Shown piece after piece: positions 41,202 to 61,919 of a stretch of DNA of 64,000 nt. Under the pieces are notes generated by a model. The model worked only from the letters and a program-made list of their open reading frames with translations, did no database searches and had not been told where the DNA came from. Within the stretch, counting starts at the first letter, position 1. Each line of letters opens with the position of its first letter. The DNA is from Medicago truncatula (lineage: Eukaryota > Streptophyta > Magnoliopsida > Fabales > Fabaceae). Where the stretch lies: positions 3,918,501-3,982,500 of the forward strand of contig NC_053044.1 of the NCBI RefSeq assembly GCF_003473485.1. The letters run 5' to 3'. A program made the translations under genes and the position numbers.

Positions 41202-41952
41202 TTTGCTACTTTTTTGTTTCATTGACTTTAGATCAACTCTCAGCGTCAATTAGAGGGACTATGCTCAATATGACAGCAACCTTTATAAGTTATCAATATA
41301 TTTGACTTCACACATAAACAACCTTTGCTTGAAGGAAACATAGTTTTCTTGATTTTCTTTTTAACCAATTTATTTGACTTCACACATAAACAATCTATAT
41401 TTTCAAAACCTATGTCCATTTGTGTTTACTTTTGCTATTTTTTTATGAGTAAATACCAATTTGGTCCTTAAATTTGTAGGATAGTATCAACTTAGTCCTT
41501 CACATTATCAATATTCTAAAATGTTCCCTAAAAATTGCAAAAATATTAATAATGATATTATGTTGGTATGTCAAAGATAAATTTGAAACTAAGTGAATAA
41601 TCTCTAGAATGCATATGTTAACATATTCAGATAGAGAGATTAACTTGTTTGACATCTTGCAATTCAAGAAATCATTTTAGAATATTGATAATGTGAGGAG
41701 CTAGGATGAAACATGCTAGAATTTCATGGACCAACTTAATATTTTTATTATTTTTATTTGTTGACTTTAAATCAACTCTCACTGTCAATTAGAGTGACTA
41801 TGCTCAATAAGAAAGCAACCTTTAGCAATTTATTTGACTTCGCATAAACAACCTTTGCTAGAAGGAAACATAGTTTATTTCCACACTGATTTTCTTGTTA
41901 GCCAATTTCTACTTTGTCATCATCCTATTGAACCAAGAAAAAACATACATAC
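41202..41952 (+). repeat. Duplicated CNL promoter segment flanking a MITE
   Basis: A segment of about 120-150 bp with GTCAATTAGAG, GACTATGCTCAAT and GAAGGAAACATAGTTT occurs at 41202-41350 and again at 41740-41880. Between the copies, about 41449-41740, is an element with inverted ends. Its left arm holds TTGGTCCTTAAATT and CACATTATCAATATTCTAAA; the right arm has the complement of the same blocks. The right-hand copy is the promoter next to the CNL start codon. Confidence 0.7.
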
Positions 41953-44900
41953 ATGGCTGCTGCATTTGTAGGAGAAGCATTCCTTTCGGCTTCGGTAGAG
42001 GTGCTATTAAACAAGATCGTTTCCAACGAGTTTTTAAATTTCTTTCATAGCAAGGAACTTGATGTTTCACTCCTCAAAAAGCTGAAAATAACACTGTTAA
42101 GTCTTCAAGCTGTGTTGAATGATGCTGAGGAGAAGCAAATCACCAACCCTGCTGTCAAAGAATGGCTGGATGAGCTCACACATGTTGTTTTTGATGCTGA
42201 TGATTTGCTTGATGAGATCAACACTGAGGCTTTGCGGTGGAAAATCGAAGGTTGCCCTCAAAGTCAAACCATCATTGATCAGGTCATATATCTTTACTCT
42301 TCTCCTTTTAAACGGTTTCCGGAAGCTATCTATTCTAGAATACATGAATTGTTTCAGAGATTAGAGCATTTTGCATTGCAAAAAGACATCCTGCAACTTA
42401 AACAAGGTGTTTCCAATAGTATTTGGTATGGAAATCCTACAAGTTCTGTTGTTGTTGATGAATCTTCTATTTGTGGTAGAGATGATGAAAAGAAGAAACT
42501 TAAAGAGTTTTTGCTTTTAGAAGATGGTAGTGTAAGTGGAAGTAAAATAGGAGTGATTTCCATTGTAGGCATGGGAGGGCTTGGAAAAACAACACTAGCT
42601 AAACTCCTTTTCAATGATCATGAAGTAGAAGACAATTTTGATCTTAAAGCTTGGGCATATATTTCAAAGGATTTTGATGTTTGTAGGGTTACTAAAGTAA
42701 TTCTTGAATCTATTACTTTTAAACCTGTAGACACAAATAACCTCAACATTCTACAAGTGGAATTGCAACAAAGCTTAAGAAATAGGAGATTTTTACTTGT
42801 ACTAGATGATATTTGGGATGGAAGCTATGTTGATTGGAATAATCTAATGGACATTTTTAGTGCTGGTGAAAAGGGAAGTAGAATCATTGTCACGACACGA
42901 GATGAAAGTGTTGCAAGGTCTATGCAAACCTCTTTTCCTATCTACCATTTGCTGCCTTTGGCGAGCGAAGATTGCTGGTCTTTACTTGCCAAACATGCAT
43001 TTGGACCATATAATTGCAGAAACCGGTCGAACCTAGAATTTATTGGCAAAGAAATTGTGAAAAAGTGTGATGGCTTACCAATAGCTGCAGTAGCACTAGG
43101 CGGTCTTCTTCGATCCGAGTTATCAGAAAATCGCTGGAACAAGGTATTAAAAAGCAACATTTGGGATTTACCAAATGTTAAGGTGCTTCCGGCTTTGCTA
43201 TTGAGTTATCATCATCTACCTTCTCCTTTAAAGCAATGTTTCACTTATTGTTCGATTTTTCCTAAGAACTTCATCTTAGAAAAACAGATGGTGGTTCAGC
43301 TGTGGATTGCAGAAGGCTTTGTACACCAGTCCAAAAGTGGAAAAACTATGGAAGAAGTGGCTGATGAATACTTTGATGAACTAGTATCGAGGTCACTTAT
43401 ACATCGATGGTCAGTCAATGATTGTGTACACTACAAAATGCATGACCTCATTAATGATTTAGCTACAATGGTTTCATCTTCATACTGTATCAGGTATGGC
43501 GACCGAAAGTTACAAGAAAGTGTCGAAAGAGTACGTCATTTGTCATAAAACAAAGGCAAGTATAACTCTTTCAATAAATTTGACAGCCTCTATGAATCGA
43601 AACGCCTTCGAACATTCATATCGTTACCAGTAAGACTAGAGTGGCTACCAGACCAACATTATGCTAAATATTTCTTATCAAACAAGGTTTTACATGACTT
43701 GTTATCAGAAATACGACCTCTACGGGTATTGTCCTTGTCATACTACCTTAATATCACCGATCTGCCTCAATATCTTGGAAACTTGATTCATCTCCGATAT
43801 CTGGATCTTTCCAACACTAAAATTCAAAGGTTGCCATATGAAACATGCAAGCTCTACAATTTGCAGACTTTGTTGTTGTCCAGATGTTGGTTACTAATTG
43901 AATTGCCTGAGGATATGGGAAATTTGATCAATCTAAGACACCTTGATATTTGTGGCACAAACTTGAAGTACATGCCTTCACAAATAGCCAAACTACAAAA
44001 TCTTCAAACTTTGTCTGCCTTTATTGTCAGCAAATCGCAAGACGGTTTGAAGGTTGGAGAGCTAAAAAACTTCACCAATCTACAAGGTAAACTTTCCATT
44101 TCAAAACTACAAAATGTTACTGATCCCTTTGAAGCTTTTCGAGCCAATTTGAAAAGCAAAGAGAAAGTTGATGAGTTATCGTTAGAATGGGATTACGGTG
44201 CTACTTTGGATACACAAATTGAAAGACTTGTACTTGAACAACTACAACCTCCTTCAAGTTTGAAGAAACTAACCATAAAATCCTATGGTGGAACTAGCTT
44301 TCCGAATTGGTTTGGTGATTCTTCATTTGCTCATATGGTGTACTTGTGCATAAGTGATTGTGATCATTGTTGGTCACTTCCACCACTTGGACAACTACTT
44401 GGTCTCAGGGAACTATACATTTCTGGTATGAAATCAGTGAAGATTGTTGGTGCTGAATTCTATGGAAGTAGTTCTAGTTCCTCTTTATTTCAACCATTTC
44501 CCTCCTTGCAGGTTTTGCGCTTCAGAGATATGCCAGAGTGGGAGGACTGGAACTTGATTGGAGATACAACAACAGATTTTCCAAATTTGTTACATCTATC
44601 TCTAAAGGATTGTCCAAAACTTAAAGGAACCTTACCTATAAACCAAATTTCCTCAACTTTTGAATTATCTGGCTGTCCTCTATTGTTTCCTAACTCAATG
44701 TTATACTTCACAGAAAACATACCAACAAACTTTCATTCATCACTTGTGCTCAACTGCACCAACTTGATCCTAGACTTAACCCTCTCGAGAATTCCTTCCT
44801 CGGCTTCATTCCCTAGAGACGGTCTACCTACAACTTTGCGGTCACTCACTTTACGTGATTGTGAGAATCTAGAATTCCTTCCTCATGAATCTTTGTGTAA

Positions 44901-45704
44901 TTACAAATCACTTGAGGAATTGGAAATACACAATAGTTGTCATTCATTGACATCTTTTACTCTAGGCTCTCTTCCTGTGCTCAAAAGTCTTAGAATTATG
45001 CGTTGTGAACATCTGAAACTCATTTCAATTGCGGAAAATCCAACACAAAGTCTCTTGTTTCTTCAGTATTTGAGCATACGTTCTTGTTCTGAACTTGAGT
45101 CGTTTTCCACAAATGAATTTAGTGCGCACCTAATCTTACCTATTTGAATGTGTCAATGTGTGACAAGCTTAATTCACTTCCAGAACCAATCAATATTTTC
45201 ACTGGCCTAAAACAATTAACTATTCAAAATCTTCCAAATCTTGTGTCTTTTGCAAATGAAGGTTTACCTATCAATTTACGAAGTTTAAACGTCTGCAGTC
45301 GCGGAAGTTCTTGGACAAGAGCTATCAGTGAGTGGATTTTGCAAAGGCTCACTTTTCTTACAACATTGCGCATTGGAGGTGATGATCTTTTGAATGCACT
45401 TATGGAAATGAATGTGCCATTGCTTCCAAATTCTCTGGTGTCACTATACATATATAATCTTCTTGATGTAAAATGCTTGGATGGAAAGTGGCTGCAGCAT
45501 CTCACATCTCTTGAAAACCTTGAGATTGCATACTGTCGAAAACTCGAATCCTTGCCAGAAGAGGGACTTCCTTCTTCTCTTTCTGTATTGACCATCAAGA
45601 AGTGTCCTTTACTGGAAGCAAGTTGCAAAAGCAATGGAGGGAAAGAGTGGCCTAAAATTTCTCACATTCCATGTTTAATTATCAACAGACAAGTGATCAT
45701 ATGA
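41953..45704 (+). pseudogene. CC-NBS-LRR resistance gene with one nonsense codon and one frameshift
   Basis: Intronless CNL of the RPP13-like/Rx-N type, a cytoplasmic immune receptor class. After an Rx-N coiled-coil (DDLLDEINTEALRWK at about 89-103) come P-loop GMGGLGKTT (206-214), kinase-2 LLVLDDIW, RNBS-B GSRIIVTTR, GLPIAAVALGG, the RNBS-D region CFTYCSIFPKNF and MHD at 496-498. The Trp ending kinase-2 marks the CNL class. At 43546-43548 an in-frame TAA follows VRHLS. The same frame then stays open through the LRRs (LRVLSLSYY, LRYLDLSNTKI) to 45125. There the frame shifts, probably by a GC duplication in GTGCGCACC, and coding-like sequence continues to the TGA at 45704. As it stands only a 531-residue CC-NBS protein lacking LRRs is made. 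All other motifs are intact, so loss of function is recent. Confidence 0.88.
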
Positions 45705-46439
45705 GTGACTAGGTGAGGTGAGTCCTTGTTTGTTTTTTGCCATCATCATGTATTAACTTTCTAAAAATATTCAGTTTTCAATTTCTAAAATCTGTGTTTA
45801 TAAATTCCTAAGAAGTATATGGAAGACAAATGTAGTCAATAATTGTGATAGAGACAAGTGATCTTATTCGTTTTAATAAAGTTTCTTAAAACACTATTTT
45901 CATTAGTCTCTTAAAGAAATAATGAAAATAGTGTTTTGACTACTGAACTATTGTAAACGAAAATGGTGAGCGAAATGTTGAATTTCCATTCTCTTATGTT
46001 TATTAGTTGAGGTGAAAATGAAAACAGTAAACTAGATTTTACTACTGAACTAAAGATGTTGCAATCATATGTATCTTGCCGGAGTGTCTCGGCAGTCATC
46101 CTTCAAAGGTGACAATATCAGTAGACTTTGCCATTTGCATGTCTTCTATCCTTTGCTCATGACACTTAAACTGTACCTTTTTGAACTGGACTGATTCTTT
46201 GCGAACCGAACTATACCAAATTGTTATAGTAAAACTGAAATTAGGATATATAAAAAGAAAATTAAACTGAACCGAATCAAATATAAGAGTTAAAAAAAAC
46301 AAAAACAGTTAAATCAAACTGAATTGCACCAAATGAACTGAGTTGTGACAGATATAGTTCACGAACTGAATTCGTGAACAACCATCATAGTTCCATTCTT
46401 TTCAAGTGCAGTTAGTATGGTGGGTTAGATTGTATTGAT
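45705..46439. other. CNL 3' flank
   Basis: AT-rich DNA without recognisable genes; the first 100-150 bp would be the 3' UTR. Confidence 0.45.
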
Positions 46440-47130
46440 TTTCCACTTAGACATAGCCAAGTTTTTCCAAGTTCTGTCTTAGTAAATAAGTTAATGTCAC
46501 TTATTAATCTTCCATACAAAACCTTAGGGATTTTTTATTTTTTTATTTTTTTATGTTTTCCTAGTAAGGACAAATTAAATGAACTTCTTGGAAAAATGTA
46601 AGGCCTAGCAGCCAGACCTATTACAGTTAGAGGCAGTGGATTGGCTCACATCATCAAGGTAAAGATTGGTTTTTGCGAAAACAAACGATCTTTTTTTCAA
46701 TGTCATTCAATATCGCATAGTTGTCAAATCGAGATTTAAATTGTTAATCTGAAGATCTATTTTTTTAATGGTGAATCGAATCTTACTAGATATATATCAT
46801 CAACAAAAAATATAACATTTTTAAGTGCAAGAAAGCAACATAGCAACGTCATTTGAAAGGTTAGAGTCAGCTAATGCCTTCACTTTTAAGGCTCGTCGTT
46901 TGAAAGGTTTTGTATTGTATCACAATACTCGATTATTTAACAGTGTTGTAACCGAGCAAGAGATCGATTTAGTAAGTATGTCTTTCTCGAAACAAATTAT
47001 ATATTCGAGCCCAAGGCATAAATCAGATTATGGTGCTCATTTATTTTATCAAGTATGAAGATTAATCTTTCGTGTTAATTACTCTATAGATACTATCGGG
47101 AAAGAAGATTGCAGGAGACATGGAAAATAT
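46440..47130 (+). repeat. Duplicated block A (partner at 52985-53690)
   Basis: Shares ACATAGCCAAGT, GTTCTGTCTTAGTAAATAAG, AAAACAAACGATC, CGTTTGAAAGGTTTTGTATT, GAGCAAGAGATCGATTT and GTATGAAGATTAAT in the same order with 52985-53690. A 77-codon frame at 46825-47058 has no family features and is broken in the partner copy, so it is not called a gene. Confidence 0.8.
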
Positions 47131-47135
47131 ACCTA

Positions 47136-47510
47136 AAAAAATCCTTTTGAATTATTGTATTTGAAAAAATAAATTATTATTCATAAAATGATTTTATTAC
47201 GACTAGCGAAAAGACGGGCACGTTGCGCCAACGTTTGAAAATTATTAACGATGTTCTTTTTATGAAATTTTGATTTGGATTAAAACTAAAAATATAAATG
47301 TTTGTTGCTTTTAAGTTATAACAAACCAAACTAATCATGATTATTTATTTCAATGACACCGATATAAAAAAATATATAATATAAATTCTTTATTTAATGA
47401 CACCAACAACAATCTTTATTATAGAAAAAATTGTTCAAAGGTATCTCAATTTTACATAAGAATTGTTTGCTACTACATATATCAACAAGATGCATCTTTT
47501 TTTCAAAGGT
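47136..47510 (-). repeat. Duplicated block B (partner at 56945-57325), containing a Helitron-like 3' end
   Basis: Nearly identical to 56945-57325 over about 370 bp. On the minus strand it has a hairpin (CGTTG GCG CAACG, 47233-47221), then CTAG at 47206-47203 followed by T, as at Helitron 3' ends. The same AACAACAATCTTTATTATAG-type repeat recurs at 47530-47700 and, inverted, at 47900-48160 and 52290-52568. Confidence 0.7.
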
Positions 47511-47830
47511 GACAATAGAATATCAGTAAAAATATAAATGTTTGTTGTTTCAAGTTATAACAAATCAAGCTAACCATGATTATTTATTTCAATGACACAA
47601 AAAAATATAATCTAAATTTGTTTTTTTTCAATGAAACCAACAACAATCTTTATTGTAGAAAAAGTTGTTTAAGGGTATAATTGAGATAATGAAAAAGTAA
47701 ATATAAATATACTCATCTCGTTTGTTACATTTTTTAAATGATAAAGGAAAACAAAAAACAGACATATATATAAGAATAAATTTAAATATTAAAAAAATAT
47801 AACAGACACGATATGAATATATATATATAT

Positions 47831-47860
47831 GTTTGTGTGTGCGCGCGCGCGTGTCTGTGT
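47831..47860. repeat. (GT)n(GC)n microsatellite
   Basis: GTTTGTGTGTGCGCGCGCGC followed by GTGTCTGTGT, a striking GC island in AT-rich repeat DNA. Confidence 0.85.
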
Positions 47861-48188
47861 TTTTTTTCCTTTATTATTTAAAAAATGTAACAACTAGATG
47901 AGTATATATATACTAACTTTTTCATTATCCCAATTATACTTTTAAACAATTTTTTTTATAATTAAAATTGTTGTTGGTGTAATTAAAAAAAAGAATTTAG
48001 ATTATAATTTTTTGTTATATTGTTAGTGTCGTTTAAATAAATAATAATGATTAGTTTGGTTTGTTTTTTTTTATTTAGGGAATTAGTTTGGTTTGTTATA
48101 ACTTGAAAGCAACAAACATTTATATTTTTAGTTTTAATCCAAATCAAAATTTCATAAAAAAAAAAATTAAAAAAAAATAATAATAATT

Positions 48189-50301
48189 CTAGATTACCCT
48201 ATCTTGTTTAGAGAGTATTTACCCCTTCATGATATCAACCAATCAAAATGTAATATATATTGACAACATTAAATGTCATAAATGACTCAATTTTTTCTAA
48301 AAAAAAAAAAAATCAATTTTAATCATAAGGTAACTTTTAATACTTTTAATTTTTATTAAATTATAGACAGGATTACATTATAGGTCTTTTATCTTATTTA
48401 TTTGTAACACTTTGGTCCTTTATCTTTATTTTTTTTTTCCATTTTGGTCTTTTATCTCTCATAAAAGCACATACACATATTTTTTTTTAATATATTTTTA
48501 TTAAAAATGAAAAAATCCAGAATTATGATGAAGATGTTCATCATCTTCGTAGAATCAAAAAAATTTCTACACAAATATATCTCCAAATATCATGAATTAA
48601 TGTTATGTTCCCCTCAAATCTTCTTTTAAACACAAAAATCAAAACCCTATTGGAGAAAGAGATTTAGTTTCATCACAAAAAAAAAAAAAAGATTTAGTTA
48701 TATAAATTATCACACCGTATATTATTATTATTATTTTTTTTTTTTAACTCAATATTCAAATCCGGCATAAAAATAACCCCAAAATTGAGAGCAGCTTTGC
48801 ACATCAATTTTTTTGTTTCCAGAACAATCTTAACTTTCGTAAAGCCTAACCCTTCCGCCGGTGACTAAGCCTCCACCATCCACCTTGCAACATTTGTGAA
48901 ATTAAGGTTTTGAATTTTGTGTTTAAAAGAAGATTTGAGGTGAATATAACATTAATTCACGATATTTGAAGATATGTTTTAGTAGAATTTTTTTATTTTA
49001 TTTAAAGAAGATGATGAAGATTCAAAGGAAGAAGATGAAGATGATGAACATCTTCATCATATTTCTGAATTTTTTTCATTTTTAATAAAAATATATTTTT
49101 AAAAATAAAATAATGTATTTTTTAATAAAAAAAAAATGAGAAAAAAGATGTATATGTAATCTTGACTTAATTACATTTAGGTGTTCAATCTTAATTAATT
49201 TACGCTACATGATTGGCTTAAAAAAATTCAAATTTCACATCAAATTTCATTCATCTGCCGCATTTTGATTGTTCAATTTTGATTCATTCATCAAATTTCA
49301 TTATCAGTTACATTCATAAAATTTTTTCTTCCCATTTTGATTGTTCAATTTTGTCGTTCCAAACTGCCGCATTTTTTAATTTTCGTGAGAATCGTCGTCG
49401 TTTGTTTGATTCCAAATATCGTGTGAATTTTCGTTATTTCCAGTACCACGTCAAGTATGGTGATTTGATTTTTCTTTTTGATTTGATTTTTCTTTGTTGT
49501 GAGGTAGTTAATTATAACAATTGAGTAAGTCATCTGTTGTACTTTGAGGACTGCTAGCAGGTGTTGCCGCTGTGATGTTGTGGGAGTTTGCTAGCATTTT
49601 TTTCGGTTGCTGCTGAAATTGTTATGTGATGAGGCTTTTGTTCTTTTGTTTGGACTTAAATGTTTTGGATGATAGTGAGGCAGGTCTATACGTGTTAGCA
49701 GATTTTATTAGGTTGGCCGCTTAAATAAAAAAAAAAGTCACGATACCTGACACGGTTTTAGAAACAACGACAATTCTCACTATAATTGGAAACTGCGGCA
49801 GTTTGGAACGACAAAATTGAACAATCAAAATGGGAAGAAGAATGAAAAAGAAACAAGAATTGATCAATTTGGAAGAATAAAGAAGAAGAAATTTGAATGA
49901 ATGAGATGTTTTTGTTCTCACGTTCGGGGTTTTAGAATGAAAGAAATTTTATGAATGTAAGTGATGAATTTAAGGATATCCAGATGAAAAAAAAAAATTT
50001 GATGTAAAATTTTATTTGTTATAAGTCTTGTAGTGTAAATTAATTAAGATTGAACACCTTAATATAATTAAATAAAAATTTAAAGTATTAAAAGTTACTA
50101 TATGATTAAGATTAACTCTCCTTACAAAAAAAGATTAAGATTAACACTTTTTTGGTAAAAAAAAATAGATTAACTCTTTTATTTTTAGAAAAAATCTACT
50201 CATTTATTTGACATTTAGTGTTTTCTATGTATATTATATTTTGATTGATTGATATCATGAGAGTGTAATTACCCTCTAAACAAGAGAGGGTAACGTAAGC
50301 C
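48189..50301. mobile_element. Long-TIR transposon (non-autonomous), itself carrying a nested foldback element
   Basis: Left arm 48189-48365 and right arm about 50085-50301 are inverted copies. Both have ATTACCCT or GTTACCCT, CTTGTTTAGAG, CATGATATCAA and GTAACTTTTAATACTTT when read inward. An 8-bp flank TAATAATT stands at 48181-48188 and 50302-50309, and this site is single in the related repeat at 47266. A second inverted block (GGTGTTCAATCTTAATTAAT) follows further inside. The centre (49380-49740) has no recognised protein. Confidence 0.7.
48366..49166. mobile_element. Foldback/MULE-like element nested in the left arm
   Basis: Ends are GACAGGATTACAT and the inverted GTCAAGATTACAT. Arms of more than 100 bp match as inverted repeats (for example AAATCTTCTTTTAAACACAAA at 48619 and its complement at 48913). 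Flanks TAAATTATA and TTAATTACA agree at 7 of 9 bases. Removing it restores the outer transposon's arm. Confidence 0.65.
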
Positions 50302-50629
50302 TAATAATTTTAAAGCGTTAGCGCAATAAAAAGATCGGAAAGACGACCACTCACTGTTTTTTTGCTAAAATGTTATACCTTAAAAAAAACTAAAATGCTG
50401 TAATATTTTGAAAGATATGGTCTTGTAACAAACATTTCCGATATATTTTAAAAAGCAAAACTAATCCATCCCTAAAAAAAACTAACTTATCCGATAAATT
50501 TCACTGCTTTTAAAAAAAAAAAAAAAAAAAAAAAACTAGTCACACGGATCGAAGCTTGTGATCGTTGATAACATAGTCATCCGACGGTCATAAATTTATG
50601 TAATCCAAATTGAATATTTTAGTTAGTGC

Positions 50630-50637
50630 TATAAATA
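50630..50637 (+). promoter_or_regulatory. TATA box of the H3-tail-like mini-gene
   Basis: TATAAATA, 76 bp upstream of the ATG at 50706, a normal plant spacing for a leader of about 45 bases. Confidence 0.6.
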
Positions 50638-50705
50638 AACATCCCCAGATCATAGTTTACTTCACTTCACACATAAAATTCAACACTCAAACTCGGCAGT
50701 TGTTA

Positions 50706-50891
50706 ATGGCTATCGTTAAGCAAAAACTCTTTGGGTCAGAAAAGAGCAAGCAAAAGATCAAGTCTACTGGAGTTCAAGCACCAAGAAAAGTCGCTCGTAA
50801 ATTCGCTCGGAAAACAACTCCAGCCTTCAAGATGGTGAAGAAACCTACACTTGAGATTAATGGATACGTCTGGGTTATTCACAAATCTTAG
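50706..50891 (+). CDS. 61-residue histone H3 tail-like protein without histone fold
   Basis: A short intronless frame with good signals: a TATA box 76 bp upstream and AATAAA 102 bp after the stop. The protein starts MAIVKQ, aligning with H3 MARTKQ. A 12-residue insertion (KLFGSEKSKQKI) follows. Then KSTGVQAPRK and, with one residue missing, VARKFARKTTPAFKMVKKP align with H3 positions 9-38 (KSTGGKAPRK, then LATKAARKSAPATGGVKKP). Lysines matching K4, K9, K18, K23, K27, K36 and K37 are kept; K14 is Gln. The globular histone fold that should follow is replaced by 14 unrelated residues and a stop, so it cannot join a nucleosome as H3 does. It may be a decayed H3 copy or a free tail that competes for histone-modifying or reading proteins. 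The upstream ATG at 50610 precedes the TATA box and was not used. The alignment is by eye. Confidence 0.6.
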   Translation: MAIVKQKLFGSEKSKQKIKSTGVQAPRKVARKFARKTTPAFKMVKKPTLEINGYVWVIHKS

Positions 50892-50992
50892 TTTTTTTTT
50901 GTTGTTTTTAGAAGAAATCCATGTCATAGTTGTTATGCAAATTATGTACCGTACTCTTGTTCAATGAAATTATTGTGTAAACGGTTTAATTC

Positions 50993-50998
50993 AATAAA
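50993..50998 (+). terminator. Polyadenylation signal AATAAA of the mini-gene
   Basis: TTCAATAAAGTTGG, 102 bp past the stop codon at 50889-50891. Confidence 0.45.
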
Positions 50999-50999
50999 G

Positions 51000-51937
51000 T
51001 TGGTTCGATGTTGCATGTATATTATGGGAAAAGACAATAAAAAAAAAAAATCCATCGATTTTACCATCTTATATTTGCGTGTATCCTTTAGAATTTCTAT
51101 CGATTTTACGATTTTATGCACTCGTAACAAGCTTATAATATTAGACGAACAATTATTTTTATTTTGGGATGATAAAAATCCTCTTAGGTTTACACTTTAC
51201 GGGACATGTCATCACCCTTAACAATGTTTGCTAACATAGATTAACAAAAAGAAAACTCGATAGACATTTTATGATTGAGGAATAGATTGAATCATTCATA
51301 TTGTCAAGGCTACATGAATTTGAGCAAACTGATACAAAGAAAAAAGAGCTTCTGCAATATTTCAAGGATGTGGATGTGGTATATAGATAGATAGATAGCC
51401 AATTTTGTCTCTCCACGTTAGCCTTTGGAATAGAAACTGCAACAAATACGATCCTTTTCTCCTTATTTTATGCCAAAATCATTAAAATAAATCTTCCACT
51501 ATATATTCTCCTATTATTTCTTCTTCTTTTTTCATATAAAACATGATTTTCATTAACAAATATAGCATAATTGTTCTTCAACTGCGGGTTGTTTTGCTTC
51601 ATGGTGTGTCAACAAACCCTTCACTCATCTTCATTAACAAATATCTAAAAGGCATAAGACAATTGATGAATTAGTTTTATAACAGTTACAAATTTTGATT
51701 CCAAAAGACTTAATAGGTTTACTGGGTTGAAAAAATCATCGATGTAGCAATTGTTGCATCATTATTATTTTTTTCCAATCTAATAATAAACTTGTTAAGT
51801 TCTTCAGGAATTAAATTTTGAAACTCTTGTAAAATGAATTCTTGATTCTTGTTGTTGCCTTTGAGATCTTTGTTAGTGATAAATGGTGAAGGATCAATTT
51901 AATCTCTAATCTCTAGTATATTTTTTCACGTGGTTAA
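51000..51937. other. Spacer, no gene found
   Basis: AT-rich DNA with a few short frames lacking family features. Confidence 0.45.
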
Positions 51938-51951
51938 AGTTTAGATGAGTT

Positions 51952-52089
51952 ATCCCGTGAGCTTAGTTCAGTTGGTATGGATATTGCATATTATATGCAG
52001 GAGCCGGGGTTCGAACTCCGGACACTCCACTTCTCCACAATTAAATTGTGTGAGCTCTAGCCACTAGACTACTTGACAAAAAAAAAAAA
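51952..52089 (+). mobile_element. tRNA-derived SINE
   Basis: Has a Pol III A box (GTGAGCTTAGTTCAGTTGG) and B box (GGTTCGAACTCC) with tRNA-like spacing, then a short body and a poly-A run to about 52090. The flanks AGTTTA(G)(A/G)TGAGTT at 51938-51951 and 52090-52103 form a 14-bp target duplication with one mismatch. Confidence 0.88.
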
Positions 52090-52103
52090 AGTTTAGGTGA
52101 GTT

Positions 52104-52289
52104 TAAAGCTCTTTATAATTTATTGTTTAAGTGATTCTCTCAATATTATTTTTTTAAGAAGATGCTCTCGGTATCTATAAATATACCACTCAATAAATAA
52201 CACATAACAAATAGATCTATACTATCCTTTCAGCACTTTTGGGTTGAATTTTTTTTTTCTTTCAAAAATACCCTTACTTTTCAATATAA
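52104..52289. other. AT-rich spacer
   Basis: Nothing recognised. Confidence 0.4.
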
Positions 52290-52568
52290 ATAACACATAC
52301 ACATAAGTATAGTAATACTTACTTTTTCATCATTTCAATCATACCCTTAAACAACTTTTTCTATAATAAAATTGTTGTTATATTATATTATTGTCGGTCT
52401 CGTTGAAATAGATAATCATGGTTAGTTTGATTTTTTATAACTTGAAAACAACAAACATTTATATTTTTTAAAGTTTTAATCAAAATCAAAATTTTATAAA
52501 AAAAACACCGTTTATAGATTTCAAACGTTAGCGCAATAAAAAGAGCGAAAAGACGGACACATCGCTAG
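52290..52568 (+). repeat. Helitron-like repeat, uninterrupted copy
   Basis: Matches 47900-48188 joined to 50302-50345. It ends ...AAAGACGGACACATCG CTAG (CTAG at 52565-52568) followed by T. It is a reference for the unsplit repeat. Confidence 0.6.
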
Positions 52569-52984
52569 TCATGTATAAAGATTTAAAAGATTGTAAAAAT
52601 CAAGTTTTTTTTAGATGTCAAAATTTTTCAATTGAAAAAAAAAATTGCACTTGAAATTTAGGCTTTAATACATTGTTATTCTATTTTTTAAACTAATTTG
52701 TCTATGATAAATATAGTTTGTTATGATATGAAACTGCAAATTTTTCATACCTATAATTTTAATCAAAACTAAAATTTCTAGAAAAATTAATGTTGTTGTT
52801 TTATACTCATTATCCCCATTCGCCATATAAATAGCGGATGCGTATGACTTATATTCACTTCATGGTTCGGTTTAGAAAGAAAATCGATCTGATCTTTAAA
52901 GCAGTCGGTAAAATTGAACTAAACTATAACGGTTCGTCCCAAACCAAACTGGAATTGTCTTTAAAAAAAAAAAAAAAAGAACTG

Positions 52985-53690
52985 TCTTTTTGAACTAGAC
53001 ATAGCCAAGTCTTTCATAGTTCTGTCTTAGTAAATAAGATTTTTTTTATGTTATCCTAGTAAAGGACAAAAAGAGCTTGGCAGTTATTAAAAAATATGAT
53101 GGCCTTTCTAGGAAGAGAATATCACATGTAAGAGCTTCTTGGAAGGATGTAAGGTCTGCGAAAACAAACGATCCTTTTTAAAATATGATTCAATGTCTTC
53201 AGAGCATAGTTGTCAAATCGAAATTTAAATTGTGAATCTGAAGATCTATTTTTCTAATGGTGAATCAAATCTTATTAGATATATTTGCAACAAAAATATT
53301 AACATTTTTAAGTACAAGAAAGCAACATAGCTTGAAAGGTTAGAGTTAGCTAACCCTTCACTTTTCAGGCTCATCGTTTGAAAGGTTTTGTATTGTATCA
53401 CAAAATACTCGATTATTAAACAGTGTGGTGACCGAGCAAGAGATCGATTTGGTAAGTATGTCTTTCTCGAAACAAATTATATATTCGAGCCCAAGGCATA
53501 AATGGTGGCGTTATGGTGCTCATTTATTTTACCAAGTATGAAGATTAATGTTTGGTGTTACTCTATAGATACTATCAAGAAAACTGTAGGAAAAAGAAGA
53601 ATGCATGAGATATAATTTAATTGGATCTCCAATTCAGACAAAATATTCAAATCATTAGACATGAAAAATAAACCTAAAAAGGTCAGAGTG
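52985..53690 (+). repeat. Duplicated block A, second copy
   Basis: Parallels 46440-47130 with small gaps. Both copies are followed by, or near, members of the Helitron-like repeat, so they may have moved together. Confidence 0.8.
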
Positions 53691-54017
53691 ATTTTTTATT
53701 TTTATTTTGTTGAATGGCAAATAGATATATATAGATATATAAGAAAAAGGTAATCAATGTACATGAGGAATGGAACACACAAAATGCCCAAAAACACCCC
53801 AACCAAACCTGAAGAAAGAGCACCTACAACACTGAAACCAACAACAAAAAGACCATCCCTGTCCTCCTAGCTAATGACTAAAATCAAAAGCAAAATGGAC
53901 CTAATGAGGGTGATTCTTAAATAATACTTATATGGAATGACTAAAATGACATTCATAGCACATCTCCTTCAGAGGAAGAATACACCCCGTCCGTCAACCT
54001 ATATGGAATATCAGTGC

Positions 54018-56615
54018 TCAATGCTCGTCTAGCTGGTCCTGCAAGAAGCCAAATATAGCTTTAACTTAGATTATGATCAACTTTGGATAATATTATAAAG
54101 AGATCAATGATTATTAATCAAAATGCTTTGACGTGATGATTATTGTATAGACATTTTACCATGTCATCAAAAGTCCAGAGGATGATGTTGTTTCTCAAAA
54201 GTTGCATGCGAACCGTGCTGTCTTTGTAGTATTCATCTCCCAATTTGAGCTCATTACGTGCTTCATCTAAAGCCTATCAACAAGGAAAAGAAAATTGATT
54301 CAGTACATGTACAAGCCAAACATGAACAGAAAAGAGAGACACATAAAGCATTTGATAAGAATAGGTCTTTGTTCATTCACCGACACATATAATTACATGC
54401 AATATTATTAATTTTCTCAAACTATTATCATTGTTGACGTATCCGTGCTTCATAGAAAACATTCATCACAAATTAATGGAAGAACACAACTATTAGTATA
54501 ACTTCATAGTGCATATATCCCTCATAGTCATTGCAAAACAAACAAACAAGATTGGATTAACACAAACCTGTCTAGCCATGTCAAGACCTTCGTCAAACCG
54601 GTTAAGAATTTCATAATAGAAAACCGAGAAATTCAAAGCCAAACCCAATCTTATAGGATGAGAAGATCGAAGATCTGCCGCAGCAATATCCTTCAAACAA
54701 TCACAACAAATTAGTTAATAAATCTTTCAAATTAAAAATCTTCTTATATATTAAAGTTAACAAGTAAGCCCTAATTTTAACCTAAACCCTATTGCATAAT
54801 TTTACTGTTTTAACCCTAATGTTCACACCTAATCTCCTATTTTCATGAACAATCTTCTTATATATTAAAGTTAACATGTAAGCCCTAATTTTAACCTAAA
54901 CCCTATTGCATAATTTTACTGTTTTAACCCTAATGTTCACACCTAATCTCCTATTTTCATGAACAATCCTAATGCTCTCTCCTAATCTTCTTATCTTCTT
55001 ATATATTAAAGTTAACAAGTAAGCCCTAATTTTAACCTAAACCCTATTGCATAATTTTACTGTTTTAACCCTAATGTTCACACCTAATCTCCTATTTTCA
55101 TGAACAATCCTATTGCTCTCGCCTAATCTTCTTATATATTAAAGGTAACCCGTAAGCCCTAATTTTAACCTAAATCCTATTGCATAATTTTACCGTTTTA
55201 ACCCTAATGCTCACACCTAATCTTATATTTTCATGAACAACCCTAATGCTCACACCTAATCTCATATTTTCATGAGCCCTAATTTTAACCTAAACCCTGT
55301 TGCATAATTTTACCGTTTTAACCCTAATGCTCACACCTAATCTTCTATTTTCATGAACAACGCCAATGCTCACACCTAATCTCCTATTTTCACGAACAAA
55401 GCAAATCGGCATCGCTTTATTTCCCCTATTTCTTCAAAACAAATCGCCCTATTTCTTCAACAAAACAAATCGCCCTATTGGAATAAAAGGGTTTTGAAAG
55501 ATTATAGCAACATTTTTTTTGTTAATATTACACTTTTCATCCAGATTAGAACTGAACTCTCTTTGTTAAATATTTACCACAAAATGCACCTGAATTTTGC
55601 AATCTATATAAACAGGTGGAAGAAACATTTCAACAAACAGTTAAAGGATATCATTTACGGTAAATGCCAAATATTCGATAAAAGGAAAATTATTTAAATA
55701 AAACATTTTACATGTTGAGGTTAAGAATGAACTATTTTTAGGTACATAATATAACATTAACATATAATTTTTACAAAAGAATGAAGTAACATTTTTTCAA
55801 AAAAAAAAAAAAAAATACGAAGTAACATACCAATAATATAATATTGACATATAATTTTAACAAAAGAATGAAGTAACACACGATTGATAAAAATTAATAT
55901 TTTTTTGGTGAATAAGCGTGGTGTCTGAGGTTCAAATTCCAACATCTGCATATATTTGGGACCACATATTTCATTCTCTTTAATATGCATTGAGATTTGT
56001 TTTTGTCTACTATATCTACAATGTATATGACCCGTGCGGCAGCACGGGTGGAAAGTCTAGTAATAATAATAACTAAATAAAACAACTTTTTTTTTAGGGT
56101 TAGGGTTTAGAGAAAAAAAAAACCTGTGCAGCCTTGTAAGACAAGATAATATCCTCAACAGCAGATTTTTTGTCATCACCAATCTTAAACTCAGCCATAT
56201 ACCTTTGATAATCACCTTTCATCTGATAATAAACAACCCTAATCTCACTCGATGAAGCAGAAGGTATAAGTTTCGAATCCAGCAACTCCAGAATACTACC
56301 ACAAACATTCTCCAACTCGGATTCAACTTTGGACTTGTATTTCTTAACATGCACAAAGTGATCATCTTCATTCTTTCTACCTTCTTCCTCCTTCGAAAGG
56401 ATTCTCAACGCCGCACGAAGTGGTTCGGTCGCGTTCTTGTAAGCGACAGATAGTAGGTTCATCTCTTCCAAGCTAAGCTCTGAGGCTGGTGTGTACCCTA
56501 CAACTATCTTCTGCATGAAGGAAACCATCTCCTCGTAGCGTTCCGCTTGTTGTGCTAGTTTTGCATGGAACACATACTCTTCTCTCCTTAGTCTCTCTGC
56601 GACCGTAAAACCCAT
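54018..56615 (-). CDS. Divergent 14-3-3 protein
   Basis: Four exons on the minus strand (56615-56124, 54690-54568, 54273-54160, 54038-54018) have GT-AG borders, stay in frame and give 249 residues. 14-3-3 dimers bind phosphoserine/threonine motifs. Conserved blocks include [63 protein letters not shown] and [10 protein letters not shown]. The phosphate-binding set K (AYKN), R (second Arg position of the GARR block), R-Y (QRY) and the Asn residues of LNFSVF and LLRNN are present. Unlike typical members, the GARRxSWR helix reads [10 protein letters not shown] and the tail is only DDMDQLDEH. The four-exon layout fits the non-epsilon group. The short last exon (seven codons including the stop) is the least certain part. 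Intron 1 carries a Helitron. Confidence 0.88.
54739..55400 (+). repeat. Amplified 5' end of the Helitron
   Basis: The Helitron start TCTTCTTATATATTAAAG recurs at 54739, 54853, 54994 and 55137, each followed by TAAGCCCTAATTTTAACC and CACACCTAATCT. Partial units without the start follow to about 55400. Units are about 114-143 bp. Confidence 0.85.
54739..56060 (+). mobile_element. Non-autonomous Helitron (1322 bp) in 14-3-3 intron 1
   Basis: Starts TCTTCTTATATATTAAAG after an A. It ends with an 8-bp hairpin (ACCCGTGC at 56030-56037 pairing with GCACGGGT at 56042-56049) and CTAG at 56057-56060 followed by T. These are Helitron ends inserted between A and T. It takes up about 92% of the 1433-bp intron and lies opposite to the gene. 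No Rep/helicase gene is present. Confidence 0.85.
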
Positions 56616-56944
56616 GATTCTCTTCTCTCGTTTGTTTGACTGTTTTGTTTTTCGATCGAGTGTGAGTGTGTGATTGTGAGAGTCACGATACCTATATATA
56701 CACATACGAATGAAATAACTGAATTGAGTAATTTGCGTAAAAGATATGTATTAACTTTGTGTTTTGTAACAAAATAAATCTTTCTCTAATTATCTTATTA
56801 TGCAAGTTAATGATCAACTAAAACACAATTTTACCTCATCTTAATCTTTTGAATCTCAGCATATATTTACGCTTTTATTTTTTCTAACTTAAAATCCTAT
56901 TTAGATGAGAGAAAAACCGACTTTCAAAAGATCCATGTGATTTT
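56616..56944 (-). promoter_or_regulatory. 14-3-3 promoter region
   Basis: A likely TATA box, TATATATAGG on the minus strand at about 56693-56702, lies about 80 bp before the ATG. Beyond 56944 duplicated repeat DNA begins, so the unique promoter is short. Confidence 0.45.
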
Positions 56945-57325
56945 CTAACAAAAAAAATCCTTTTGAATTATTGTATTTGAAAAAATAAATTATTATTCAT
57001 AAAATGATTTTATTACGACTTAGCGAAAAGACGGGCACGTTACGTCAACGTTTGAAAATTATTAACGGTGTTTTTTGTATGAAATTTTGATATGGATTAA
57101 AACTAAAAATATAAATGTTTGTTGCTTTTAAGTTATAACAAACCAAACTAATCATGATTATTTATTTCAATGACACCAATATAACAAAAAAAAAAATATA
57201 ATACAAATTCTTTTTTTAATGACATCAACAACAATCTTTATTATAGAAAAAATTGTTCAAAGGTATCTCAATTTTACATAAGAATTGTTTGGTACTACAT
57301 ATACCAACAAGATGCATCTTTTTTT
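56945..57325 (-). repeat. Duplicated block B, second copy
   Basis: Near-identical to 47136-47510, including DNA outside the Helitron-like end, so the two are copies of a larger unit. Here the CTAG reads CTAAG. Confidence 0.75.
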
Positions 57326-57680
57326 CGACAACACAAATCATAAGAACTCCACAATAAAGCATGCTTGACTTGGAGCAATTTTGGTATGGGTGACCTTCTG
57401 GAAAGTTTCCCAAAAAGCGTGTGAGTATGGACAAAACAAGGTGAAAAGACTCGTGTTGATCTGTGGGGTCAGTCAGCAATTCTGAAAATGGTATGGGATG
57501 TTACAAGTAGTATCAGAGCATACCTCTTCTGGTACGATGTGGTTCGGCGAGAAACCAAGCAGAAGTTGATGGCCATGTAACGCTTGAGGCTGACGAGGGT
57601 GGAGAGTGGTCGTGCGGTGAACAAGGCATGACAATAAGTGGCTCCGGCAGCTTCTAAGCAACCGAATTCACGTCAGAATG
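57326..57680 (+). mobile_element. Cassandra-like TRIM fragment with 5S rRNA-like LTR
   Basis: 57335-57411 resembles the 3' two-thirds of 5S rRNA: AAGAACTCC, AAGCATGCTTG and TATGGGTGACCTTCTGGAAAG match 5S CAGAACTCC, AAGCGTGCTTG and GATGGGTGACCTCCTGGGAAG. The segment ends GGGATGTTACA (57493-57503) and then AGTAGTATCAGAGC, one base off the initiator-Met primer site TGGTATCAGAGC. This order (5S-like region, LTR end, primer site) is that of Cassandra elements. The 5' part of the LTR and the second LTR were not found. Confidence 0.75.
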
Positions 57681-57684
57681 AGTT

Positions 57685-57686
<2 letters not shown>

Positions 57687-57729
<43 letters not shown>
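57687..57729. repeat. (GA)n microsatellite
   Basis: About 43 bp of uninterrupted GA right after the Cassandra-like fragment. Confidence 0.95.
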
Positions 57730-57731
<2 letters not shown>

Positions 57732-58898
57732 AAGTGGTAAAGTTAATAAAAGTAGTGAATGAAAGTTTTTGGTGAGGGTTAGGGTTGATGTTGAATGTTT
57801 CACGGTGAGAAAGGGTTTCAGTGAGGGTTCCACGTCGACGGTGAGGAGAGAGGGTTGATGATGATGAATTTGGGTTTCATGAGCTGGTTGATAGTGATAA
57901 GAAAGAGTTTATGTGAAAATTTGGGGGAAATGGTTTCCCCAGGGTGAGAATTTTGAATTTTGGACTTTAATGAATTTGGGGCTTCTGATTTTTATATACG
58001 TTTGTTATATTTTAATTTAAATATATTTTAAATGGGGTTAAACCATTAAATCATTTAATATCTATTGAGGTTAAAATCCTCTCTCTAACCAGGTTTTTAA
58101 GTCAAGTGGATAACTGCCTACTTAAAATCTTTGAGCTAATAAGTGTTTATTATACCAGTGAAACTCTTGTGTACTTCTTAAATATAAACATAATCCTCAA
58201 TCTTAAATGACACAAAACTAAACTAAATATTAGTCAAAAGACCAAAACAAAACTAATAGAGAAGCTAAAAGATCAAATATATAATTAGGCATTTTGTATT
58301 CTTGTAAAAAAGAACGTAATTTATATTCTAGTAACTCAAAGCATGATGAAAAAGGAATCGAGATCCTCTCCTGCCACTGGACGGTCTTCTCAATCTCGAT
58401 CATTGATTTTATTTTCATGCTTGCGATCAACAATACATAATGATGGAGGAACAACTCTAATTAGAACAAAGAAAGTAAAATAAGGGGAAGCACATAAGAT
58501 AATTTGGGTCCTAATAAAAGCTCCTCCCTCCAACTCTAAATCATAGTCGTTTAAGGTTTGTTAAGAAAATGATTAATTGTATTAATTTCAATGATAAAAT
58601 TAATATCATTTACTAAAACATTCTTATTAGTTGTAGTTAGTGGGGTACTTAAGTTGGATGAAATTCAATAAATAAGGGTATAATAATGGAAAAAAATAAT
58701 AAATGTTACATTGGTATTCAAGAGTAACAATTATTTTGAGAAAAAGAAAAATGCTAAAGACACAAATATTGTGAGACGAAAAGAGTATATTTTTTTTATA
58801 TATAAAGCTATAGATGGAACTAAGGATATGTTTGTTACCGATTAAAACAAAATGATTTTGACATTGAATAACTTAGAGATTATTATTTAAAGATTGAG
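57730..58898. other. Spacer, no gene found
   Basis: A GAGGGTT-rich part (57760-57860), then AT-rich DNA. The frame at 58230-58454 (minus) has no family features. Confidence 0.45.
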
Positions 58899-59063
58899 AA
58901 ATACTAGCAACACATATTTTTCAACACATTCTCTTTGATTGGTTAAAATTCACATGGGTCCCACCAAATCATGTGCACATGATTTGGTGGGACCCATGTG
59001 AATTTTAACCAATCAAAGAGAGTGTGTTGAAAAGTGTGTGTTAAATGTATGTTGTTAGCATTC
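58899..59063. mobile_element. Foldback MITE with a 90-bp perfect palindrome
   Basis: Bases 58931-59020 are perfectly self-complementary around the centre GTG|CAC at 58975/58976. Pairing continues with few mismatches to the ends (CTAGCAACACA and TGTTGTTAGCA). The lack of a loop and the near-perfect arms point to a recent MITE. Confidence 0.8.
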
Positions 59064-59651
59064 CTCTTAGAGATTTTATAAAAAATCAAAATTTATTTTG
59101 CATTTGTTTATCGTAATAAAATCACTTAAAAAGGAACATAATTTAGTTTGTTTGGCAAAAAAAGGATTTTGTTTTTCACAACAATACATCAATTTTTTGA
59201 CATTAAGTCAATTTCTTTTTTTAACAAACAAAAAATGAATTATATTAACATCAACAATGTAGTCTCTTTAGCAAAAGGTGTGCCAAAAAAGACCACTAAA
59301 ATATACAAAAGACAACTAAGTAATAAGACAATAAGGCCAAATTAACTAATTTCAAAATAAGTAAATGAGCACGACCACCAACTATGATAGTCTAAGACAA
59401 AAGTTATGTTATGTCCTAGAACGATGTTATCTTGAGGAAGATAATAATACTCACATTGATACGACAGATTGATGAAGAAGATGCTTCGTTGTGGAAGATT
59501 TTGCTGGAATCCATGGAAGAAACCCTGTTGTCAGTGAGACAGAAGGGGGTGGTACCTGCACACGCGCTCTGACGCCCAAGTCAGGTGGAAAACAATGAGG
59601 TTGGGAGGTTTATAAGATAGAATGAACTTACTTGGAATTGTGGTGGAGTGT
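59064..59651. other. Spacer, no gene found
   Basis: AT-rich; a 65-codon frame (59148-59345) lacks family features. Confidence 0.45.
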
Positions 59652-59660
59652 TGTATATAG

Positions 59661-60531
59661 ACTATTACTTTTCCCACCCTATGGCCTTCTCCCGCGCCCT
59701 GTAATTTTTCAAAAAATGCCCTTGTGCATTCCGGATTTTAAAATCCAGATTCATGTTTACTATTTCGGATTTTATAATCCGAACAATTCTTATGTATAAT
59801 CAGCCATCAGACTCTCTCAAATTTTAACAGTTTTGAGTTTTGTTTTTAAAAACAACAAAAAAAAACTAAGTAAAAAATGTTTAAAACATGTCAAATAAAA
59901 TCATAAAAATATAAAAATAGCACCAAAAAATTCTAAAAATCAAATAAAACTAATGCAAATTTTTTCGGATTTTTCTGAGAATATGAAAAATTAAAAATGG
60001 ATCTAAACGATTGAATTTTGGATTTTGAGGGGCGGAGTCCCGTAAGAAATTCCTTCTAAGGGTGTCATGGTCCTTGAATTTTTTCTGATTTTCTGGGCAA
60101 GTTTCCGAGCAATCCGATCAAGTAATCTGAAAACCCGATTTTTGACTAAGAACATGTAACAATGACCCAAAGCAGAAGGATGAGAGTTATGAAGATTAAT
60201 ATTGTCCATAAAATGATCATCCATGTTACAAACATGTTTAGAATTTGTGCTGATACAGTTCGGATTATATAATCCGAACTGTTTTACCTTGAAAAAGGGT
60301 GTTTAGGGGGTTTCCGGATTATGTAATCCAAAAACATCATGTAACGCGCTCTATTTTTTGAAGTTTTCGGATTACAAAATCCGGAAAAACCAGTAACTCC
60401 ACTTTTCACCCTATAACAAAGGAAAACACCATTCCGGATTATGAAATCCGGAATGATTCGAGGGTAATTTTGGAAGAAAAAAAAATAGGGCGCACGAGGA
60501 AAGGCATAGGGTGGAAAAAGTAATGCTCCAG
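59661..60531. mobile_element. Non-autonomous MULE, 871 bp, filled with CCGGATT palindromes
   Basis: Imperfect inverted ends share TATTACTTTTCCCACCCTATG (right end inverted, CATTACTTTTTCCACCCTATG) and a following CGCGCCCT or GCGCCCTA. A perfect 9-bp flank, TGTATATAG, stands at 59652-59660 and 60532-60540. Inside, palindromes of the form CGGATTNNNNAATCCG recur at about 59733, 59766, 60262, 60315, 60369 and 60434. Open frames inside are palindrome-derived and not called. Confidence 0.8.
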
Positions 60532-60540
60532 TGTATATAG

Positions 60541-61130
60541 GCATATGAGAGTATAATGGACTTGAAGCCTTAGACGGACCGAAACAATTTACATTCTTTG
60601 CCTTTATCCACCAAAAGAAATAAAGTTTAACTTTATCCAACATCTGAGGTATGAAGTTCTCTTTATTTTTTAATAATCTATTATTTCGTTAGAAGCCAAA
60701 ATGAATTAAAATATCAATCTCAAGCACAAAGTGTGCCAAAGAAAAAGCCTAAGTTTACAAAATGTTTACAAAAAATCTACACATAACTACATATCTTTTA
60801 AAGTTGTTTTTACATTTTTTTAAGATTCATATTTTTTTAAAAACTATAACAAACGGAATTAATCCTCTTAAAAATCCTGTAACAAACGGGCAATAGTAAA
60901 ATAAAAAATTTATCCTTTAAACAAATCAAAACTCACTTAAATTGATCTGGTGGTGTTGGTTTGTAACCTTAAAGTGTGCTCCTTTTCAAAGTATCAGGGT
61001 CGATTTTAGTTAGGCTAATTTAGTTTCTTAAAAAATAAAATGAAAAATCGAAAATTGAAGAAAAAAAGATAACTTGGAAATCTTTCGTTTCTTATTTCTC
61101 TAGTTGACATGTGGCAAATTAAAAATTAAC
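60541..61130. other. Spacer, no gene found
   Basis: AT-rich, nothing recognised. Confidence 0.45.
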
Positions 61131-61135
61131 GGTTG

Positions 61136-61864
61136 TGATTTGAAGTTTTAAAATCAATTTTATTAAGAGAAAAGGTCACACCTCTTCTTCTTCTTCAACT
61201 TGAAAGCGTCTGTTGAAAGAGTACCTTCCGAACACCCCACCGCCGCATATGAGTAGCGTTTCTGGTAATTTTCGTTTTTTCTTCTTCTTCTTCTTTTTTT
61301 TCTTAATTTTCTATGAATATTATTAGGGTAAACAATCATTGTGTCTCTGTGTCGCTTTTTGTTTGTAATGTTATTGATTAAATTGACGAACAACACATTT
61401 GAAGGACCAAAGTGACTAACTAAAGCGACACGTGTCTGCAATTTCGATACATTCAGTGACTATAATGACACCACATTACACATTCAGATATCAAAATGGT
61501 TGTGCTGCATGTACCTTAAAATCGCTATTATGACAATTTGTGAGTGAAATCATTGAGTCTATTGATCACGGGAAGAGATTTGGAATAAGGATAGAAATTA
61601 GGGTTTATTGTTTAAGGTTAATTTTTTGTAACCCTTGTATCTCTTAGTAATATAAACTCATTGATATTGAATTGGAGAGACCTCTCTTCTTGAGACGTAG
61701 GTCATTGTTGGGTCGAACTCGATAAATAAATATCGATGCGTTTTTTCTTCTTCTCCTTTATCTATTTTTATTATCGGTGTTTGTTTGATTAATTTAGTTT
61801 GATTGCTGCTAATTTTGCTCTACACATCAAAGTATTGGTGTGAGTTTTAATCGAATTCACAGCA
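61136..61864 (+). mobile_element. Probable solo LTR, copia-like, just upstream of the FAR1-like gene
   Basis: Starts TGATTTG, ends TTCACAGCA, and is flanked by GGTTG at 61131-61135 and 61865-61869. The part around 61700 (GACGTAGGTCATT...GTCGAACTCGATAAATAAAT) resembles copia LTR ends. The last 45 bp (CACATCAAAGTATTGGTGTG and AATCGAATTCACA) parallel the end of the solo LTR at 16729-17342. The left border rests mainly on the 5-bp flank. Confidence 0.55.
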
Positions 61865-61919
61865 GGTTGTTTACTTATATTATTATTGACAAGCTGACTC
61901 TATTAATTTTTAAGGAAAC

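Follow-up and report, generated by a model that had tools for sequence, protein, structure and literature searches.

An H3.1-like tail without a histone fold in a candidate mini-gene of Medicago truncatula

Can the tail of histone H3 be encoded on its own, without the histone fold? The question is raised by a short reading frame in a 64,000-nucleotide stretch of Medicago truncatula DNA, which as a whole is called the window here. A sequence-only reading of the window had proposed that this frame is a mini-gene for a free H3 tail that could occupy H3-modifying or H3-reading proteins, and had allowed that it might also be a decayed H3 copy.

The frame and its setting

As proposed, the frame is open from ATG to a TAG stop at window positions 50706-50891 (+) and encodes 61 amino acids, the predicted mini-gene product P0001. 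It is bracketed by a TATA box, TATAAATA, at 50630-50637 (+), 76 bases before the ATG, and by AATAAA, a candidate poly(A) signal, at 50993-50998 (+), again as described earlier. No ATG is present in the last 50 bases upstream of the start. The G+C content of the frame is 41%, and that of the surrounding 100-base bins is 24-31%. However, TATAAATA occurs 18 times in the 64-kb window versus 8.8 expected, and positions 46001-61900 hold nine ATG frames of at least 61 amino acids versus 3.9 (sd 1.8) in shuffles. Thus, the TATA box and the frame length alone are weak evidence for a gene.

Pfam has no match to the frame or to any of the three reading frames of the + strand between 50604 and 55000. The H3 fold (PF00125; about residues 45-135 of H3) is therefore absent from the frame, in agreement with the earlier claim, and a second exon carrying the fold was sought in the + strand frames to 55000 and rejected.

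Tandem Repeats Finder reports no repeat in 50000-52500. In a repeat scan of 49300-52300, only A/T-rich inverted pairs are near the gene among the repeats listed, which cover 20 of the 21 direct families and 25 of the 65 inverted pairs. An inverted repeat with 81-nt arms that are 90% complementary (49323-49403 and 49762-49842) lies about 0.9 kb upstream of the mini-gene and may be a small non-autonomous element. Elsewhere in the window are an Rx_N/NB-ARC/LRR resistance-type gene region (41932-45701, +), in which two long same-frame stretches are split by a single stop at 43546-43548, pieces of a 14-3-3 gene (54565-56750, -) that are convergent with the mini-gene, and a match to the MIR5286 precursor (22000-22077, +) just over the family gathering score.

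Likeness to H3 in protein and DNA

P0001 residues 19-47 align with H3 residues 10-38. Against H3.1, P0001 scores 75, and its database relatives P0002 and P0003, described below, score 64 and 58; among 20,000 composition shuffles, these scores are reached by none, none and two, respectively. Against H3.3, P0001 scores 71 (0 of 5000 shuffles) and P0003 scores 54 (4 of 5000). The P0001 score against H3.3 is reached by one of 20,000 two-residue-block shuffles, and the best other frame in the window (1045 frames of at least 30 amino acids) scores 42 against P0001's 71. Shuffled H3 tails do not reach the P0001 score in 5000 trials. The alignment is thus better than that of shuffled Lys/Arg/Ala-rich sequence. 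Pfam does not match the protein. A phmmer search of the PDB with P0001 produced 100 matches, of which the best 60 are all named H3 (best E 0.0056). The corresponding searches gave 33 matches for P0002 and four for P0003, all of them H3, with weak E-values (1.0 and 2.0 at best, respectively). Reversed P0001 and three shuffled versions gave 0 matches each. Each of the three proteins scores 4 points higher against H3.1 than against H3.3, and the mini-gene core has Ala at position 31, as in H3.1.

These comparisons make protein-level homology firm for H3 residues 10-38 only. In the core alignment, K9 corresponds to K19, K14 to Q24, K18 to K28, K27 to K36, and K36/K37 to K45/K46, so that the lysine equivalents proposed earlier at these positions, and the replacement of K14 by Gln, are correct. 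Several altered tail residues hardly vary in H3, namely A7, R8, G13, K14, T22, G33 and G34. The proposed alignment to H3 residues 1-38 stands for 10-38, supported by shuffles and the PDB matches, but not for the start, MAxxKQ, which had been equated with H3 1-5: shuffling the N-terminal residues gives a score at least as high in 37-100% of trials, a share that varies with the gap costs. The 14 residues that follow KKP, TLEINGYVWVIHKS (50847-50888, +), are not significantly H3-like, and they form two short strands in a low-confidence structure model. Their assignment to H3 46-58 (L-EI--Y--KST) was tried and rejected as not significant, with p 0.12-0.61 for these residues by themselves and 0.19-1.0 when they are shuffled within the whole protein.

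The genome searched comprises 429,922,655 bases in 42 contigs. The H3.1 protein has 51 matches in it, including single exons and fragments; at E<=1e-3, the mini-gene locus is not among the matches of the H3 search. Blastn of window positions 50300-51200 against 30 H3 loci of the same genome aligns the frame with the H3.1 locus L016 (68.6%, 105 columns, E 6.8e-7) and with L021 (67.0%, E 1.8e-6). The single best blastn row, to L036 (E 1.3e-8), lies outside the frame. In local DNA alignments with 19 full-length loci, L021 gives the highest score, 74; codon shuffles score 53 at most, and 0 of 1000 reach 74. The DNA matches to L016 and L021 place a stretch homologous to H3 codons 3-38 at 50745-50846 (+), corresponding to mini-gene residues 14-47. 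This alignment starts with mini-gene codons 14-16 (S14-K15-Q16) opposite H3 T3-K4-Q5. The lysine equated earlier with K4 is therefore probably misplaced, and that part of the sequence-only reading does not hold. Of the 19 residues shared with L016, 12 have the same codon (null p 0.02); averaged over 13 H3 genes, codon identity falls short of significance (p 0.07). The matches to the H3 copies at C4:47.97 Mb and C1:7.67 Mb are split near residues 25, 50 and 80. Coding is unbroken across residue 25 in 11 H3.1-type copies (L015-L025, at 99%) and in the mini-gene frame.

The K23 equivalent is less secure. An imperfect 12-bp tandem repeat at 50790-50813 (+), GTCGCTCGTAAA TTCGCTCGGAAA, with 10 of 12 bases identical, codes for VARK-FARK. 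P0001 matches K23 as claimed, but the match lies inside this repeat, and P0002 and P0003 have one unit and thus lack four residues there. Either a unit was gained in the genomic copies or one was lost between the repeats in P0002 and P0003. Gain is mildly favored because P0001 and P0002 are more similar to one another than either is to P0003, and loss is favored because two units fit H3 better. If the unit is a gain, the K23 match would be secondary.

The genome also contains other unusual H3-like sequences. Two divergent H3-like frames, L033 (C7:8228256-8228654) and L036 (C7:8237946-8238356), are 67% and 61% identical to H3.1 and have no stops; their tails are strongly altered, and one has a repeated tail segment. 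Four H3-like genes with altered tails, L028-L031, are clustered at C2:40664512-40686622, and L030 has extra residues after residue 26. Partial H3 matches, most of them interrupted by stops, are clustered at G000:C5:9886925-9923926.

Promoter elements and related copies

The 11-mer TCACACGGATC at 50540-50550 (+) is a histone octamer-type element with the core CACGGATC at 50543-50550. The core has a single occurrence in the 64-kb window, which lies 163 bases before the mini-gene ATG. Among the 13 near-canonical H3 genes (L015-L027, 96-99% to H3.1), nine have CACGGATC within 300 bp upstream, the exceptions being L018, L019, L021 and L022, and it is not found in 35,100 bases of the other flanks of these genes. 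The six divergent full-length H3 loci (L028-L031, L033 and L036) have no octamer upstream, even when one mismatch is allowed. TATAAA lies 87-112 bases before the ATG in 8 of the 13 near-canonical genes.

An inverted block of about 40 bases (50549-50588, -), with CCGTCG followed by ATCAACGATCACAAGCTTC, resembles H3 upstream regions and aligns with those of L024, L019, L022 and L020. Its best score is 43; two of 300 shuffles score as well, and so do seven of 300 segments taken at random from the window. The CCGTCG hexamer occupies 50582-50587 in the inverted orientation, and both CACGGATC and this hexamer are promoter elements of the histone type. The nonamer and the 11-mer form are presumably histone promoter motifs as well. 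With up to one mismatch, the 11-mer occurs twice in the window versus 0.13 expected, and CGCGGATC occurs five times versus 5.9 expected and is not enriched. The nonamer shows a slight excess only (11 versus 7.1 expected), and CCGTCG is found eight times versus 2.2 expected, a count reached in 0 of 100 shuffles. An octamer-like site (up to one mismatch) and the hexamer also occur together at window positions 32831-33121. PMC1832190 lists the octamer CGCGGATC for wheat and maize H3/H4 and Arabidopsis H4, and the hexamer CCGTCG for Arabidopsis H4.

Two predicted proteins share the whole layout of P0001. Both have 59 amino acids, with four residues missing and an end that lies two residues further on; P0002 is 90% identical to P0001, and P0003 is 79% identical. 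They come from a database of predicted proteins that holds open frames only, so their openness is biased evidence. A profile search revealed no relatives beyond these two. No longer relative with the mini-gene N-terminus was found, and viral, prokaryotic and plasmid collections contain no relative of the mini-protein. H3 is absent from the viral contigs, and 12 H3 loci in prokaryote contigs, presumably eukaryotic contamination, were left out of the analysis. Titles and the opening parts of abstracts in the literature contained no tail-only or truncated H3 gene that we recognized.

Searched against the genome at E<=1e-3, P0001 matches two places, both without stops, and no broken copy. The second copy, L014 (G000:C2:48166931-48167113, minus strand), is on another contig, is 98% identical and is open for 61 amino acids; it differs from the window copy by a single amino acid replacement (E12V) and a single silent substitution. 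Disabling stops or frameshifts are thus absent from both copies. About 830 bases match at 94%, including the promoter and 3' region, and a further 540 bases match at 96%. The TATA box, promoter elements and AATAAA are intact in both. The flanks of L014 also have several dispersed blocks in common with the window.

Between the two copies, the coding sequence differs by 2 substitutions in 186 positions and no indel, versus 33 in 1166 and 12 indel events in the flanks. The difference has a p value of 0.22 for substitutions alone and of 0.08 when indels are included, with about 1.9 indels expected in the coding sequence. Coding constraint on the mini-gene is therefore suggested at a level short of significance (p 0.08).

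Explanations for the locus

The reading that we prefer, to which we give an about even chance, is that the locus is an H3.1-derived mini-gene with a replication-type promoter and a basic, disordered peptide product. Its parts differ in strength: descent from H3.1 is very probable, and for a gene that is transcribed and translated the balance is roughly level. The locus would descend from a replication-type (H3.1) histone H3 gene, having retained the compact histone-type promoter and degraded tail codons (H3 3-38), and lost the histone fold. It carries additional sequence at the N-terminus, and its C-terminal stretch is not recognizably H3. In common with canonical plant H3.1 (PF00125), it has core residues 10-38 in order, Ala at position 31, unbroken coding, an octamer-type element and a TATA box. 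Unlike H3.1, it lacks the fold, encodes 61 rather than 136 amino acids, has altered tail residues, and has N- and C-terminal stretches that are not significantly H3. DNA homology, shared promoter elements and a second open copy thus bear out the earlier picture of a gene-like locus for an H3-derived tail that lacks the fold.

Transcription would presumably be of the S-phase type and would lead to a strongly basic, mostly disordered peptide of 59-61 amino acids that may enter the nucleus and bind loosely to nucleic acid or chromatin. The place of H3 in the nucleosome would be closed to it because it has no fold. Lys and Arg together number 14-16 in P0001-P0003, and acidic residues one or two; the AlphaFold2 model, which used three sequences, is of low confidence (mean pLDDT 54) and has two short strands at residues 48-51 and 54-57. 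Peptide segments of the predicted product are TTPAFK and KPTLEINGYVWVIHK.

Nearly as likely, and close behind, is a young H3.1 pseudogene: a gene fragment that was duplicated together with its promoter and then at least one further time, and that is open because of its youth, with a functionless peptide. The missing fold, the in-frame length changes and the alteration of near-invariant tail residues agree with this explanation, as do several stop-bearing H3 fragments in the same genome, which are partial H3 copies like the mini-gene. The open copies are few and close enough to fit neutrality (for P0002 and P0003, eight neutral replacements would create no new stop with a probability of about 0.62), and the database that yielded these two is limited to open frames. 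However, truncated H3 pseudogenes differ from the mini-gene, which has no stop in its genomic copies or database relatives, keeps a promoter with its TATA box, other elements and AATAAA intact in both copies, and has termini common to its relatives. Both genomic copies found are open, and the coding sequence is less changed than the flanks (0 indels versus about 1.9 expected, p 0.08). The earlier alternative, a decayed H3 copy that has stayed open by chance, loses some weight. That the likeness to H3 is a chance property of an orphan frame rich in Lys, Arg and Ala is the least probable explanation. The composition is indeed rich in Lys and Arg, the database E-values are modest, and single shuffles do reach the scores (one block shuffle in 20,000 for P0001; two shuffles in 20,000 for P0003). 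Strongly against it are the DNA-level match and the H3-type promoter element, along with the 0 of 20,000 shuffles for P0001 and P0002 and the empty reversed and shuffled controls. Scarcely more probable is a first exon of a larger spliced gene. A T-rich stretch directly after the stop codon (50892-50911, +) ends in TTTTTAG and resembles an acceptor site, but no Pfam domain is on the + strand to 55000, AATAAA lies about 80 bases past the would-be acceptor, and P0002 and P0003 keep the unspliced C-terminus, though they are gene predictions.

A special case of the preferred mini-gene reading is possible but unlikely, namely that the product is a histone mimic or decoy. A fold-less tail made from an S-phase-type promoter would serve H3 enzymes as a substrate or binding partner, mainly at the K27-like ARKT, and would compete for K27-directed writers and readers during replication, titrating them in S phase. 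The shared H3 promoter and the absence of a fold, which would leave the tail free, are compatible with this role. ARKTTPA, the K27-type context, is kept in P0001-P0003 and L014, and K27-type ARKT is on this comparison the best-kept modification-site context; the APRK context of the K18 equivalent is kept as well. ARK(S/T) is a known histone-mimic core, as in G9a. In histone mimics the motif lies in non-histone proteins, whereas that of the mini-gene comes from H3 itself, and its modification is putative. However, K4 writers and readers require a free A-R-T-K, those for K9 require A-R-K-S, and K36 enzymes require G33-G34. The A-R-T before K4 and the A-R before K9 are missing, G33-G34 are replaced, and the S10 position is occupied by Pro in P0003, so the proposal that a free tail engages H3 writers and readers is not supported. 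H3 would also be in great excess in S phase unless the peptide were very highly expressed. For both the mini-gene reading and its decoy form, our confidence is weighted down because P0002 and P0003 are open by selection.

Histone tails are usually studied as parts of nucleosomes. If the locus is a young pseudogene, a histone fragment was copied to another contig along with its promoter. If the mini-gene is real, a promoter and tail that were kept while the fold was dropped would be a natural experiment on a free tail, and would also show how short genes arise from conserved families.
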